Below are positions 58,577 to 64,000 of a stretch of 64,000 bases of DNA, in pieces. A program made the position numbers and the translations under genes. Every line of letters starts with the position of its first letter. Position 1 is the stretch's first letter. The stretch is taken from positions 1,452,501-1,516,500 of the forward strand of contig NC_009515.1 in assembly GCF_000016525.1 (NCBI RefSeq). The letters run 5' to 3'. The notes beneath the pieces were generated by a model that was not told where the DNA came from, made no database searches, and saw only the letters and a list, made by a program, of their open reading frames with translations. Source of the DNA: Methanobrevibacter smithii ATCC 35061 (GTDB lineage: Archaea; Methanobacteriota; Methanobacteria; Methanobacteriales; Methanobacteriaceae).

Positions 58577-58594
58577 AAGGAATTTTTATTCCTT
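58577..58594 (-). terminator. Hairpin terminator of the metal-permease operon
   Basis: AAGGAAT / ATTCCTT (7-bp stem) overlaps the stop codon of the minus-strand gene and is followed on that strand by AACTCCTTTTTTT. Confidence 0.55.
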
Positions 58595-59077
58595 ATTTTT
58601 TCTTTTCATTAAAAGCACTCCAATTGGTGCACCAATAAGAATACCTATTATTAATCCAATGAATAACGGCACAGCAAATGAACTTTGAGACTCTTCATTT
58701 TGTGTTGGTGCATTCATTATTTTATTTAATCCGTCTTCTATTGTATCATTGTTAACGTCGTCAACTACAATAACCCTATCAGATACTTCTGAATGTTTCT
58801 TTAAAAATTCATTTCCGCTGTCCTGATAAGCTATCATTAGTATGCGTTTGTTTGTGTTGTTTACACTGTGTTCTAAAATATGTTCCACATCAGCCTGTGA
58901 AGTAAATTTATAAACACTGATATTCATTCCGTTTGAATCAGCTATGTCTTTAGCTAACTGTCCGTTTGTTTCATCTGCGATAACCATTGTATCAGCAGTT
59001 ACATCAACTCCATGTCCGTATACAGCAGACATGATTAAAGGTATTAATAAAATTATAATTAAATATTTTTTATTCAT
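58586..59077 (-). CDS. Small exported membrane protein partnered with CbiM/NikM
   Basis: A 163-residue protein from ATG 59077 (MNKKYLIIILLIPLIMSAVYG); GAGTGAT provides the ribosome-binding site and overlaps the stop of the permease gene. After the signal peptide the mature chain begins HGVDVTADTMVIADE, followed by a soluble external domain (about residues 25-130) and a C-terminal membrane helix (FAVPLFIGLIIGILIGAPIG) with a basic end. Exposed N-terminal HG sequences occur in accessory NikL/NikK-type components of nickel and cobalt ECF transporters. Position after the M component suggests an equivalent role; exact family not assigned. Confidence 0.65.
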   Translation of the reverse strand: MNKKYLIIILLIPLIMSAVYGHGVDVTADTMVIADETNGQLAKDIADSNGMNISVYKFTSQADVEHILEHSVNNTNKRILMIAYQDSGNEFLKKHSEVSDRVIVVDDVNNDTIEDGLNKIMNAPTQNEESQSSFAVPLFIGLIIGILIGAPIGVLLMKRKNKE

Positions 59078-59081
59078 AGTA

Positions 59082-59702
59082 TCACTCATTAATCTCCATT
59101 ATTTCAGGTTTCATAGTTTTAATTGCACTTATAATAACCACATTTGCAGCTCCTTCAATTATTGATATAAATAAATAAAATGGGAGCAATGTTGCAAGTA
59201 ATGCGTTTAAACTCATAGTTCCAGATATTAATAATATAATTATTTGTCCAAGTGTTGCGAATATAATTCCAATTACTGTTCCTCCAAATATTGCAAACTT
59301 TTCATTTAAGTCTTTGAATAAAGTGTAGAAGAAGTATGCTGTTATGGATATTATAAATCCTATTACTATAAAATTAGCTCCAAGAGAAGTTAGTCCACCC
59401 ATATTCAATGCTAATGCCTGTATAATTAAACTTATAAATGCAACTATACTTGAAGAATATGGCCCTAATATAATTGCAATTAATGGAATTAAAAAGAAAT
59501 GAATCGGAACACCTAGGGGTGAAGGAATAGACAGTGATGTAATGATTACTGTAAATACACTAAAAATAGCCATTGAAACAATTTTCTTGTCTTTTTGACT
59601 GTCTTTTTGAAGTTTATAGAAACATATTGCCATAATTAATATTGTTAAAATCCAGTAGATAAGTGCCTGGTCTATAGTTATTATTCCATCGGGTATATGC
59701 AT
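59082..59702 (-). CDS. CbiM/NikM-type Ni/Co ECF transporter substrate-binding membrane protein
   Basis: A 206-residue membrane protein. The N-terminus MHIPDG is the hallmark of the CbiM/NikM family, where His2 and the amino terminus coordinate Ni(II) or Co(II). The conserved stretch SIPSPLGVPIHFFLIPLIAI and six to seven hydrophobic segments agree. It needs an ATPase and a Q component, which are not in the window. The metal cannot be told from sequence alone; Ni (for F430 and hydrogenases) or Co (cobamides) are both in demand in this organism. AGTGAT precedes the ATG. It is divergent from the FmdE-like surface gene. Confidence 0.88.
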   Translation of the reverse strand: MHIPDGIITIDQALIYWILTILIMAICFYKLQKDSQKDKKIVSMAIFSVFTVIITSLSIPSPLGVPIHFFLIPLIAIILGPYSSSIVAFISLIIQALALNMGGLTSLGANFIVIGFIISITAYFFYTLFKDLNEKFAIFGGTVIGIIFATLGQIIILLISGTMSLNALLATLLPFYLFISIIEGAANVVIISAIKTMKPEIMEINE

Positions 59703-59762
59703 TATATCACTTTTTCATTTATATTCTTATATATTTAAATATAATATGTATTTAAGTCTTTT

Positions 59763-59863
59763 TATTACTTTTTTTATATTTTTCATTGAAAAGTATTACT
59801 TTTTAAACATTTTTACTAATTGTATGTCGTTAATTGGTACTTTGTCAATATAATAAGTATTAC
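59763..59863. promoter_or_regulatory. Cluster of TATTAC/GTATTAC motifs between nikM-like and FmdE-like genes
   Basis: TATTAC at 59763-59768 and GTATTAC at 59793-59799 and 59857-59863, all within 100 bp upstream of the permease gene. The first two bracket an AT-rich box. The same motif occurs at the promoter of the divergent gene (60058-60085), so one regulator may bind all of them. Confidence 0.4.
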
Positions 59864-59909
59864 TTTTGATTAAATGATATATTAATTAAATTGCCATAGG
59901 TTTAACGAA

Positions 59910-60016
59910 TATTATAAACATTGTTCTGTTTGTAGGTCTTTGAGACTGATTTGGTGATACAGGATAACTTGGTATTGGTATTGGTGCTTTCTATGAAGGG
60001 TGTTTCATTTTTTTTT
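59910..60016 (+). other. Possible small RNA gene in the intergenic region
   Basis: A TATA-like TATTATAAA at about 59910-59918, a less AT-rich stretch from about 59940, the CTTGG...TGGT...TTCT element at 59966-59996, and a hairpin ATGAA/TTCAT (59993-60008) followed by eight T. Together these resemble a transcription unit of about 75 bases with its own terminator. I find no tRNA, C/D-box or riboswitch fold. Confidence 0.3.
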
Positions 60017-60057
60017 AAAAAAAAAGTAATAATATTTTTGCTTTTTTTCCATAATTT

Positions 60058-60085
60058 GTAATAATCATATTTATATGGGTATTAC
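60058..60085 (+). promoter_or_regulatory. NikR-like operator enclosing the TATA box of the FmdE-like gene
   Basis: GTAATA (60058-60063), 16 bases, TATTAC (60080-60085): a perfect inverted repeat with the spacing of the E. coli NikR operator (GTATGA-N16-TCATAC). The TATA box TTTATAT (60070-60076) lies inside the spacer, so a bound protein would block initiation. The same arrangement recurs at 63910-63937. Confidence 0.6.
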
Positions 60086-60100
60086 TTTTTATATTAGAAT

Positions 60101-60123
60101 CGTATTCATCTTTCGTGAATACG
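60101..60123 (+). promoter_or_regulatory. 5' hairpin of the FmdE-like mRNA
   Basis: CGTATTCA (60101-60108) pairs with TGAATACG (60116-60123) at the predicted transcript start, followed by a ribosome-binding site AGGAGGT (60141-60147). In the copy at 63954-63974 the stem is GTATTCA/TGGATAC, where one pair becomes G-U, so the fold is conserved. Confidence 0.5.
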
Positions 60124-60155
60124 AGTTTAATTAATTAAAAAGGAGGTTTGATTTA

Positions 60156-62999
60156 ATGGTTGTTAAAAATAACGGGAAGCGATTCGTGTTTATATTATTG
60201 GTCGTGACATTAATTGCTTTAATGATGGGTAATGTTTGTGCAGAAGATGTTAATGGTACAAATGTTGATACAATAACACCAACTAAATCAATTAATGTAG
60301 ATGTTAATTACGAATACGCAAACGATAATAATAATGTAATTCCTGATTTTTATATTTATTCAGGTGAAGATAAAATAGAATATAACAAGGAGTTGGTTAG
60401 CTCAAACAGATTTGTTCTTACATTTAAGGATAATTCTTCTAATGGGTATAATATAACTGCTTTGACTGCAGGGTATATCTCTCAAAGTCAGATTATCAGT
60501 GATTCCATTACTTTTAATTTAAAAGCTAGTGATGCATATAAACTTGGTCGTGATGTAACTGCTGATGCAGACAGATTATTGGACTTTAAAACTGCTGATG
60601 ATATTCTTGTTGTAACAACAGCAGGAGTTACCAAGTTAAATGGTAAATCAACTGAAGATGCACTTGAAGCTATTTTAAACTACGGAACTAAAATTAAATA
60701 TTCAAATGTTTTAATGTTACGTGACACTGCTGTTAATCCAATTGATTTTGCTTTTATTGTTAAAAAAGGAAATGAATTAAAAGCAGTAATTTATGAAAAC
60801 GGTTCAAGATCTTATTCTTACTTAGGTACAATTTCTGAAAACATGACTAGAGAACAATGGAACAACTATATCAGGTCTATTCATGGCCAAAATGCTTGGT
60901 CTTTTGCAAGTTTAGCTAATGGATGGGTTGCAGGTGTTTCTAGAGAAGTACTTCAGGAAGCAGCATTCCACGGGCATATTTGTGAAGGTACACTTGGTGG
61001 TTATAGTATTGTTAAAGCTTTAATAAAATATTACCCTCCAGTTCAAGAAACTTTAACTGGCGGAGGATCTCCAGCTGATGTTACTTCCTACAAAGTATTA
61101 GGAGTTCCTGGAGGCTCTGATGATGATGCAGTACTCTTTTTCTTAGATGCTACAATTGGTAAAACTTCATATGTTGGAATTGACACCACTGCAACTGGTG
61201 CTACTGAAAATATGTTAGGTTTTATTAGATGGGATGCAAAATCATTATCTGGTGATTTAATTATAATGAGTTTTGATTCCAAGAAGATAAAAGCTGATTT
61301 TAAAGCTGAAACTGGTATTAATGCTGATGCTGGAAGCTTAGAAGAATTAAAATATTGTACCTGGTGGATTAATAAAATTAATAAAAATCCTGAAGAATTA
61401 GCAACATTTTTATATGAATTTACTAATTTAACTGAAGAACAATACTATTATTTGATGGGAACTGCAAAAAGTGTTGTTCATGGTAATGTATCAATTGCAC
61501 CTGTTGAATCTCACGGTTTAGATTTAAAATATATTTTATCATTAAATTTACCAAAAGCAACAAGAACTGTTCCTTCTGGTGAATCTGGTTCATTATCCGA
61601 TGAAGAAATGAAAAATATTGGTTTTGAAGCATATAATAAAGCTAGCGCTATTTTTAAAGATGAATTAAATATTAATTTAGGTAAAGATAATGTGGATTTA
61701 GGTATATTTACTTCTGCAGGTTATGTTTATTTAAATGGTAAAGAAACTGTTGCAGTACGTGACGGACTTTATGAAATTGCTGGTGCAACTTTATACAGTA
61801 AAAACTTGTTACAATATCACCAGGCATTATGGAAACCGTTATGGTTTACATTTATATTGCGTAATCCTAATTCTGATGTTTTATACTCAGTTTATTTAAG
61901 GTATAATCCTGATGGAACATGGTTTGTCGGTGAATTAAATGGAAGTAATGTTGTTGATATTGGAATTGAAACTTTAAACAGTTCTGCAAAAGTAAAAGCA
62001 ATTCAAAAAACTTTTATGCCTGACCAAAATTGGAATAGTATTCAATCTATTGCAAATGCATGGAAATCAAATCCTAATTTTGATCAAATAATGGCTTTTT
62101 TATACCATAATCATGTTTGTCCTGGTGTACAACCTGGATTTTTCATAACTGATTATATTCAACAGAATCATCCGTTAGGTGAAAATGAATCATATAATTA
62201 CATTGCATCTAGTACTTATTGTAAAGATGACAGTTTGACTTATCTGTTAGGTGTATCTCCAGGTATGGGAACTTATTTTGTTCAGAAATTACCTGATTCT
62301 GATGTAACTTCTACATATGTAGATGGGGCTACTGATGAAGGTGCTTTAGTTATTTGGGATAATAACTTAAATATTGGTCGTGTTGTTATTGTTTCATTTA
62401 AATGGCCTACAATAGATACTAGTATGTATGCTACTTCTGAAGCAAAACGTGCTGCTCAAATTCAAGCATTCATTGATTTATATAAGGGAATCAATAATCC
62501 AAATGTTTTAGAAAATTTTGTTGTTAAAACCAGTGAGGAAAAATGGATTACTGCTGAGCAATTTAATTTATTAAAGTCAGGATCTGGTGAATTAAACACT
62601 ATGGATTATATTAAGAGTCTTGACGGTTCAGTAACTAAAGAAGATTTGTTAAAACAATTAGAAAAGAATAACAATTCAAACACTAATACTAATACTAACA
62701 CTAATACTAACTCTAATTCCAACTCTAATGTTAATGAAAACTCTCATTCATCAGCAAGCAGTGCAGGTGTTTCTAATAATCGTAACATGCCACAAAGCAG
62801 CAATTCTAATGTTGGTGATTCAAATAATGCATTAGATTCAAGCAGTGCTGATTTAGGTTCTGATGATGGTAAATCTTACGAAGTTTCTAAAAAATCTCCA
62901 GCTAAATCCATTAATCCAGATTATATGCCATATGTAGTAATTGTCATATTAATTGTCGGAATATTAGTTGGTGTAGGTTATATGAAACATAGAAAATAG
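60156..62999 (+). CDS. Surface-anchored protein with two FmdE-like metal-binding modules
   Basis: A 947-residue exported protein. Residues 1-30 are a signal peptide (cleavage after VCA-30). Two similar modules follow: the first centres on AAFHGHICEGTLGGYSIVKA (His272, His274, Cys276), the second on FLYHNHVCPGVQPGFFITDY (His651, His653, Cys655). The H-x-H-x-C-x-G pattern is the metal site of FmdE, the domain named from formylmethanofuran dehydrogenase operons. Each module is preceded by an extra roughly 130-residue domain. An Asn/Thr/Ser-rich stalk and a C-terminal helix (YVVIVILIVGILVGVGYM) anchor it outside. The promoter holds a NikR-like site. Enzymatic function is unknown; metal capture is my inference. 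Confidence 0.8.
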   Translation: MVVKNNGKRFVFILLVVTLIALMMGNVCAEDVNGTNVDTITPTKSINVDVNYEYANDNNNVIPDFYIYSGEDKIEYNKELVSSNRFVLTFKDNSSNGYNITALTAGYISQSQIISDSITFNLKASDAYKLGRDVTADADRLLDFKTADDILVVTTAGVTKLNGKSTEDALEAILNYGTKIKYSNVLMLRDTAVNPIDFAFIVKKGNELKAVIYENGSRSYSYLGTISENMTREQWNNYIRSIHGQNAWSFASLANGWVAGVSREVLQEAAFHGHICEGTLGGYSIVKALIKYYPPVQETLTGGGSPADVTSYKVLGVPGGSDDDAVLFFLDATIGKTSYVGIDTTATGATENMLGFIRWDAKSLSGDLIIMSFDSKKIKADFKAETGINADAGSLEELKYCTWWINKINKNPEELATFLYEFTNLTEEQYYYLMGTAKSVVHGNVSIAPVESHGLDLKYILSLNLPKATRTVPSGESGSLSDEEMKNIGFEAYNKASAIFKDELNINLGKDNVDLGIFTSAGYVYLNGKETVAVRDGLYEIAGATLYSKNLLQYHQALWKPLWFTFILRNPNSDVLYSVYLRYNPDGTWFVGELNGSNVVDIGIETLNSSAKVKAIQKTFMPDQNWNSIQSIANAWKSNPNFDQIMAFLYHNHVCPGVQPGFFITDYIQQNHPLGENESYNYIASSTYCKDDSLTYLLGVSPGMGTYFVQKLPDSDVTSTYVDGATDEGALVIWDNNLNIGRVVIVSFKWPTIDTSMYATSEAKRAAQIQAFIDLYKGINNPNVLENFVVKTSEEKWITAEQFNLLKSGSGELNTMDYIKSLDGSVTKEDLLKQLEKNNNSNTNTNTNTNTNSNSNSNVNENSHSSASSAGVSNNRNMPQSSNSNVGDSNNALDSSSADLGSDDGKSYEVSKKSPAKSINPDYMPYVVIVILIVGILVGVGYMKHRK
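62680..62732 (+). repeat. ACTAAT-type microsatellite coding the Asn-Thr/Asn-Ser stalk
   Basis: Six-base units (ACTAAT, ACTAAC and variants) encode alternating Asn-Thr then Asn-Ser residues between the second FmdE module and the membrane anchor. Such repeats can change length by slippage without shifting the frame, altering stalk length. Confidence 0.75.
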
Positions 63000-63070
63000 G
63001 AATTTTTGTATTTATGGATTGCATATTAATTTTTTAGTATGCAATTCTTTTAATATTTTTTTTGATTTAA

Positions 63071-63556
63071 ATGAATTTTAAAAATATATTATTGTTAATC
63101 TCAATAATTTCTCTAATATTTGTTTGTGTAGGTGGAGTAGCTGCACATCCTGGACATGGACATGAGTATATTGAAGAGGTTTCTTCATCTTCAGATTCTC
63201 CCCAGTCAGCTCCTTCACATTCAGGTTCATATCAACAGTCACATTCTTCAGGTGGTTCTTCTGCTTCTCACACTTACCAATCTAAAAGTTCTCAGGGAGT
63301 AGCTGAAAAAACACATAGTTCTACTGGCGGGAAATCTGCAGGATCTGGTGTTGATTCACAGAATGATGTGTCTGATTCTGGAGATATGAATGTTGATGAG
63401 GTTAATAATTCAAATACAACAGATAACAGTACTGCAGAGGAGGTAGTTGAAGAAACTAATCCTTTATTCAGCACATCTAATATTTTTATTTACATAGTGG
63501 TTTTTTTAGCAGGTTTGTTCGGTTCAATAATTTTAATGAAGATATTTTCTAAATGA
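63071..63556 (+). CDS. Small surface protein with N-terminal HPGHGH
   Basis: A 161-residue protein with signal peptide (ILLLISIISLIFVCVGGVAA) and, after predicted cleavage, the mature start HPGHGHEY. Then comes a Ser/Gly/His-rich disordered stretch (PSHSGSYQQSHSSGGSS), an acidic segment (DSGDMNVDEVNNSNTTDN), and a C-terminal membrane helix (IFIYIVVFLAGLFGSIILMKI). The exposed histidines could bind Ni, Co, Cu or Zn. It lies 71 bp after the FmdE-like gene and before another copy of the same promoter, so it belongs to the locus. No ribosome-binding site is obvious; a leaderless or read-through start is possible. Confidence 0.7.
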   Translation: MNFKNILLLISIISLIFVCVGGVAAHPGHGHEYIEEVSSSSDSPQSAPSHSGSYQQSHSSGGSSASHTYQSKSSQGVAEKTHSSTGGKSAGSGVDSQNDVSDSGDMNVDEVNNSNTTDNSTAEEVVEETNPLFSTSNIFIYIVVFLAGLFGSIILMKIFSK

Positions 63557-64000
63557 AATGAGATTATAAAATAATTATATTGTTTGGATGTTTGATATTA
63601 TTTAAAATAATTGAATGGATTCTTAAAAATCATTTTTTTATTTCTTTTTTTTCTACATTTGTCAAAACTGATTTTTTTTATTACTTTTTATTGAAATGTA
63701 ATACTTTTAAAATATTTTAACTAAATGGCGTATTAATTAAATTGCCTTTGTTTTAAGTAATTTTTTAAAATATTGCTTTATTGATATCTATTTAAAATTA
63801 ATTTGCTGTTTTTAAATAGTTTAATATTGATATTCAGCTATTTTGTGTAGATTATTTTTAAAATTATTTTTTAGAAAGTAATAATATTTTTAGTTTTTTC
63901 TCAAAATTCGTAATAATTATGTTTATATATGTATTACTTTTTATAATGATATAGTATTCATTTATTATGGATACGTGTTTTATTAATTAAAAGGAGGTTG
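63557..64000 (+). promoter_or_regulatory. Duplicated control region of a gene starting beyond the window
   Basis: Contains TATTAC (63679-63684), GTAATAC (63698-63704), the conserved TATTAATTAAATTGCC block near 63731, AAAGTAATAATATTTTT near 63876, the NikR-like GTAATA-N16-TATTAC at 63910-63937 with the TATA box inside, the hairpin GTATTCA/TGGATAC (63954-63974), and AAGGAGGTTG at the last bases. Elements and spacing (44 bases from operator to hairpin) equal those before 60156. A further paralogue or locus member should begin at about 64005. Confidence 0.65.

Follow-up and report, generated by a model that had tools for sequence, protein, structure and literature searches.

What do anchored surface proteins with metal-type residues do beside a permease of the nickel and cobalt importer family? 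The question is raised by a locus of Methanobrevibacter smithii at the end of the window, that is to say, of the whole 64,000-nucleotide stretch of DNA analysed here. A preliminary description of this DNA had proposed four genes for metal capture at the cell surface, namely a large anchored protein with FmdE modules (FS), a small anchored protein starting with histidine (HIS), a CbiM/NikM-type permease (NikM), and its small exported partner (PART), and all four were found where it had placed them (Table 1). Directly outside the window lie a second FS gene, whose product is 65% identical to the first, and then hypE. The reading that we favour, with a probability of about 0.6, is that these genes belong to a NikR-repressed surface nickel-acquisition system in which FS and a CobN-like protein, together with a proton-driven trio (T-U-V), feed a HIS-NikM-PART cassette.

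Table 1. Features of the locus (window coordinates, except for the first row, which is in contig coordinates).
Feature	Position	Strand	Remarks
Window	1452501-1516500		Single 1,853,160-bp contig, M. smithii
PART	58586-59089	-	Exported partner of NikM with a single transmembrane (TM) helix
NikM/CbiM-type S component	59082-59702	-	Solitary, without adjoining Q/O
Operator-like palindrome, one mismatch	59741-59768		Before nikM
Operator GTAATA-N16-TATTAC, exact	60058-60085		Encloses the TATA box of FS
FS	60156-62999	+	Anchored surface protein, two FmdE domains, C-terminal TM helix
FmdE domain 1 metal motif HGHIC	60969-60983	+	Residues 272-276; without the fourth (Cys) ligand
FmdE domain 2 metal motif HNHVC	62106-62120	+	Residues 651-655
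C689	62220-62222	+	FS domain 2 counterpart of Cys55 in solved FmdE
HIS	63071-63556	+	Exported Ser-rich stalk and C-terminal TM anchor
HPGHGH	63146-63163	+	Predicted mature N-terminus of HIS
Operator GTAATA-N16-TATTAC, exact	63910-63937		Belongs to the second FS gene
Second FS gene	Start about 64007		Just past the window edge, downstream of operator 63910-63937

Conserved residues of the surface proteins and the permease

FS comprises 947 amino acids, matches the FmdE family over two stretches (Pfam PF02663, 9e-19; 68.3 bits against a curated cut-off of 22.9 bits), and ends in a TM anchor, in agreement with the earlier placing of FmdE modules on an anchored surface protein. The metal ligands of solved FmdE proteins are His15, His17, Cys19, and Cys55 (Cys55 of the DESHY protein), and in one crystal the site was occupied by mixed zinc and nickel; overall, the crystals contain more zinc than nickel (PMC2954224). 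Both FS domains keep HxHxC in 43 of 46 homologues, that is, the sites are not degenerate. The two FmdE-type sites described earlier thus stand as far as both H-x-H-x-C motifs are concerned, and do not stand as a complete ligand set in domain 1, which has no cysteine like C689 of domain 2 (kept in 45 of 46 homologues). The AlphaFold model of FS (pLDDT 78, pTM 0.77) had as its best PDB match 2glz, an FmdE protein, with a probability of 1.00 but an E-value of 0.003; a phmmer search of the PDB with full-length FS found no relative, and comparison with viral structures gave no match. A YEVSK motif beside the TM anchor is common to FS and CobN and might serve for docking or anchoring.

Several other FmdE- or FS-type genes were seen. 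FS relatives occur near ABC transporter genes at L152:8830-11412, L158:8821-11007, L079:9094-11562, and L080:8471-10981; those of L079 and L080 have no HxHxC, and that of L152, which is also near genes resembling formylmethanofuran dehydrogenase subunits, has no FmdE match. The FS of the genome taken to be that of M. marburgensis (L170:6980-9874) has a sub-threshold match to the Shr-like hemoglobin-interacting domain PF07550 (21.9 against 22.3 bits). M. smithii also has a single-domain, cytosolic-type FmdE gene (genome 1,416,325-1,416,903; L007:4326-4904), which comes after FdhD-like and binding-protein ABC transporter genes.

The permease begins with MHIPDG and matches Pfam CbiM (PF01891) at 9e-42, above the cut-off, which bears out its assignment as a CbiM/NikM S component. 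Its N-terminal M1-H2 and a second histidine (PIHFF) are conserved and aligned with those of 4m5b. No Q and O genes are present at this locus; full nikMNQO and cbiMNQO sets are found at other M. smithii loci. For archaea, one study reports only NikMN1QO and NikMN2QO (PMC2667541).

Neither PART nor HIS matched a NikN/CbiN model or any Pfam or NCBIfam family above cut-off. PART is indeed a small exported protein, with a signal peptide recognised by eye; its model shows a small alpha/beta domain, with no significant PDB match, and a C-terminal TM helix. Its predicted mature N-terminus is HGVDVT, and it has a conserved VxHxLEH motif (H70 and H74); among homologues, HG occupies the cleavage-type position in 31 of 31, and VxHxLEH is kept in 29 of 31. 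HIS, as previously described, would be cleaved between GVAA and HPGHGH. In each of the 36 non-identical homologues of HIS in the set, HPGHG directly follows an A/S cleavage position and precedes a Ser-rich stretch and then a TM anchor, and HIS proteins farther off begin with HD or HPGHE. Because HIS, PART, and NikM all have a conserved N-terminal histidine, each of the three possibly carries a metal site at or beside its free N-terminus; that these sites bind metal we infer from sequence.

Operon structure and co-occurrence among relatives

FS homologues were found in 40 genomes of a first set of 139 Methanobacteriaceae genomes, and a wider FS profile matched all Methanothermobacter-type genomes searched and a 1,243,342-bp genome from a different family within the class. 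Of the 40 genomes with FS, 37 have PART, as do 10 of the 99 without FS (Fisher 5e-21), which answers the call in the preliminary description for a check of co-occurrence elsewhere. Where both genes are present they are mostly neighbours, and in the first set a PART gene adjoins each of the 28 nikM-type genes.

Comparison of gene orders revealed that (i) many Methanobacteriaceae have FS-HIS-NikM-PART as a single operon, which usually runs on as FS-HIS-NikM-PART-DUF2162-ExbB-DUF2149; (ii) in a second arrangement, seen in M. smithii among others, nikM-PART is divergent from FS; (iii) the large surface protein beside the trio is a CobN (PF02514, 3e-220), and CobN-DUF2162-ExbB-DUF2149 is a straight run in relatives (L193-L196, L201, L204, L206); (iv) one genome has FS-HIS-NikM-PART-CobN-T-U-V all in a row (L097); and (v) Methanothermobacter has two separate halves, FS-CobN-T-U-V and HIS-NikM-PART, the latter near hypE. 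The DUF2162, MotA_ExbB, and DUF2149 members of the trio were confirmed with Pfam. In M. smithii, the trio (T-U-V) lies away from FS (genome 1,769,581-1,771,297) and is divergent from the CobN-like gene (1,761,079-1,766,094, minus strand), with one DUF3344 surface gene between. It follows from the separate halves and from the operon orders in relatives that FS is tied to T-U-V, with HIS-NikM-PART as a further cassette attached to the FS/T-U-V unit. The original gene set of surface proteins and permease therefore holds as a real and conserved locus and is not complete, as the trio and the CobN/HmuS-like protein also belong to it; with these in the module, the system exceeds a group of binding proteins plus a permease. 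The existence of such a module is strongly indicated.

The ExbB profile of the trio matches MotA chains. DUF2149 has a TM helix with an invariant aspartate (NLVDAMLV), a motif which recalls ExbD; a PDB comparison of DUF2149 gave chance matches only, with no ExbD structure among them. A loose search of the CobN-like proteins for the HmuS active-site motif found none, and no HmuY or HmuR was recognised among the neighbouring archaeal genes read.

M. smithii encodes a further CobN-like surface protein near frh-like F420-reducing hydrogenase genes (L147:8000-12778, genome about 1,094,000-1,098,800). On a 64% GC contig labelled as an actinobacterium (L105:7586-12820), an FS homologue occurs together with an ExbB gene and a gene that weakly resembles DUF2162; the association of FS with T-U may thus extend to bacteria. 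Contigs labelled Bacillales and Clostridia (L099 and L103) hold 29% GC methanobacterial operons and are probably mis-binned.

Palindromes before the FS genes

The preliminary description had ascribed NikR-type operator geometry to the promoters of the locus. Exact GTAATA-N16-TATTAC palindromes precede both FS genes, in keeping with this assignment. Across the M. smithii genome the palindrome is not enriched, either exact (9 against 11 in the control) or with two mismatches (390 against 608), and the case therefore rests on its position and conservation before FS. A perfect palindrome (N15-17) occurs in 27 of 50 FS upstream regions, 2 of 186 control upstream regions, and 1 of 1000 shuffles; the Fisher value for FS against controls, 1.5e-19, is optimistic because FS genes share descent. 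When the sites are aligned, their middle reads TTTATATA and the half-sites flank the TATA box, an arrangement suited to a repressor. In front of the surface-protein/CobN/T-U-V operon, M. smithii and its relatives have a palindrome of similar form with N17 spacing, so that the FS half and the CobN/T-U-V half look co-regulated. Conservation is not general at the divergent nikM genes, of which only 2 of 17 have the operator with at most one mismatch, and Methanothermobacter keeps just one half-site, the one beside the TATA box.

M. smithii encodes one NikR, which scores above the curated NikR models, and among 78 good genomes of the family, 76 encode a NikR; being near-universal, it is uninformative in its co-occurrence with FS. 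The operator geometry and this wide presence suggest NikR as the putative binder of the palindromes. Regulation of the module is strongly indicated, and NikR is the candidate regulator.

Further elements lie close to these sites. An inverted repeat, CGTATTCA...TGAATACG, is located between the operator and the FS start (window 60101-60123), and recurs in imperfect form ahead of the second one. Extra GTATTAC/GTAATAC half-sites occur upstream of the genes (window 59788-59804, 59860, and 63680-63710). A gene for a MinD/CbiA-type ATPase, two kilobases ahead of an FS paralogue, also has a perfect operator in front of it (L067:6132).

The metal, a possible mechanism, and known systems

In genome G144, which we take to be that of M. 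marburgensis, gene counting puts MTBMA_c10530 at the trio of the FS-CobN-T-U-V run or no more than a few genes away. This gene encodes a "Transporter" that is one of two transporter proteins raised in nickel-limited M. marburgensis; CobN1, whose induction was left unexplained, and a NikR homologue (NikR1) were abundant under nickel limitation only (PMC12350162). This position is suggestive only, and MTBMA_c10530 may be one of T-U-V. Nickel is favoured as the metal because of NikM, the NikR-type site, the M. marburgensis proteome, and hypE, which adjoins the locus in M. smithii and is close to HIS-NikM-PART in Methanothermobacter. Cobalt, zinc, or iron is less probable. Against a nickel system count the excess of zinc over nickel in FmdE crystals, the missing ligand of FmdE domain 1, the distance of T-U-V from FS in M. 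smithii, the NikM without adjoining Q/O, and the single half-site in Methanothermobacter.

The same parts could be read as an archaeal HmuSTUV, in which FS, CobN, and T-U-V act on heme iron or corrinoid cobalt and NikM, HIS, and PART import the released metal. The S-T-U-V gene order as in hmu, the strength of the CobN match, and the weak Shr-like match of one FS speak for it, whereas the NikR-type operators, the NikM-type permease, the nearby hypE, and the induction of CobN1 by nickel limitation count against it, and we regard it as improbable. Less probable still is zinc or general metal homeostasis, with surface proteins that buffer or sense several metals and a regulator that may answer to zinc: crystal FmdE sites hold mostly zinc (PMC2954224), and a Methanothermobacter NikR homologue beside Znu genes has been suggested to be a zinc regulator (PMC3087415), but NikM comes from the nickel/cobalt importer family and CobN1 rises when nickel is limiting. 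That FS and HIS are ordinary adhesin-like proteins merely close to a nickel permease, as the many large M. smithii surface proteins with Ser/Asn-rich stalks might suggest, is very unlikely in view of the operon order conserved across genera, the co-occurrence, the shared operator, and the invariant metal-type residues.

On the nickel reading, scarcity of nickel would release NikR from the palindromes enclosing the TATA box, and the genes would be transcribed. Anchored FS, with its two FmdE sites, and the CobN/HmuS-like surface protein would then capture nickel from the surroundings or, alternatively, remove it from a ligand, for example a tetrapyrrole. The trio of DUF2162, MotA/ExbB channel, and DUF2149 may drive this surface step with the proton gradient, much as has been suggested for the Bacteroidota proteins HmuU/HmuV. 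The ion would be collected by HIS, on its flexible Ser-rich stalk, and by PART, with its added H-x3-H site, both with a mature N-terminal histidine, and passed to NikM, which may import nickel alone or with Q/O units of other Nik/Cbi systems. More tentatively, the whole may be a proton-motive-force-driven archaeal surface machine, in which FS and the CobN/HmuS-like protein on T-U-V strip nickel from tetrapyrroles or other chelates and N-terminal-histidine proteins relay the ion to an ATPase-less NikM; this is possible rather than probable.

Searches of open-access literature on FmdE with NikM, NikR, or Methanobrevibacter found no description of this system. The preliminary description's impression of novelty survives for the combination. 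An association between FmdE genes and metal transporters is already in the literature (PMC2954224). NikM, NikR, and the hmu trio are each known; the combination of parts and the nickel role appear undescribed. Archaeal HmuS/CobN homologues, which occur without a complete hmu operon, were left with a role called unclear (PMC12583661), and the locus ties this puzzle, together with the low-nickel CobN1 (PMC12350162), to named partners, a regulator site, and metal motifs. A nickel-stripping machine, if real, would give these homologues a function. The host is a major methane producer in the human gut, and the locus suggests that it gathers nickel, when scarce, by a route that appears undescribed.

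The E. coli NikR operator is GTATGA-N16-TCATAC. The FS operator shares its 6-bp half-sites and N16 spacing, and differs in the half-site GTAATA, in the enclosed archaeal TATA box, and in the N17 spacing of some sites. Like the NikMNQO, CbiMNQO, and NikKMLQO ECF transporters, the locus has a CbiM-family S component with M1-H2 and a second histidine and small exported accessory proteins (PMC2667541); unlike them, it has no adjoining Q/O, and neither of its accessory proteins, HIS and PART, resembles NikN/CbiN by any model. FS resembles the FmdE family (PF02663) in its HxHxC motifs, joined by the further Cys in domain 2, its fold match to 2glz, and its nearby metal transporters; unlike that family, it is exported and anchored, has two domains in one large protein, lacks the zinc finger, and has no fourth ligand in domain 1.

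The hmu operon of Bacteroidota encodes HmuY, a TonB-dependent receptor, the CobN-like HmuS, the membrane protein HmuT, and then HmuU (MotA/TolQ/ExbB) and HmuV (DUF2149) (PMC10434189, PMC13227078); HmuS takes iron out of heme, and HmuU/HmuV are drawn as users of the membrane gradient (PMC12583661). The CobN-DUF2162-MotA/ExbB-DUF2149 order of the archaeal relatives is that of hmuS-T-U-V, the likeness to HmuT being one of position, and both systems have a CobN-like surface or membrane-anchored protein and, probably in the archaeal case, induction by metal scarcity. By contrast, in the archaeal system FS joins or replaces CobN, NikM/HIS/PART are coupled to it, the operators are of the NikR type, and the metal is likely nickel.
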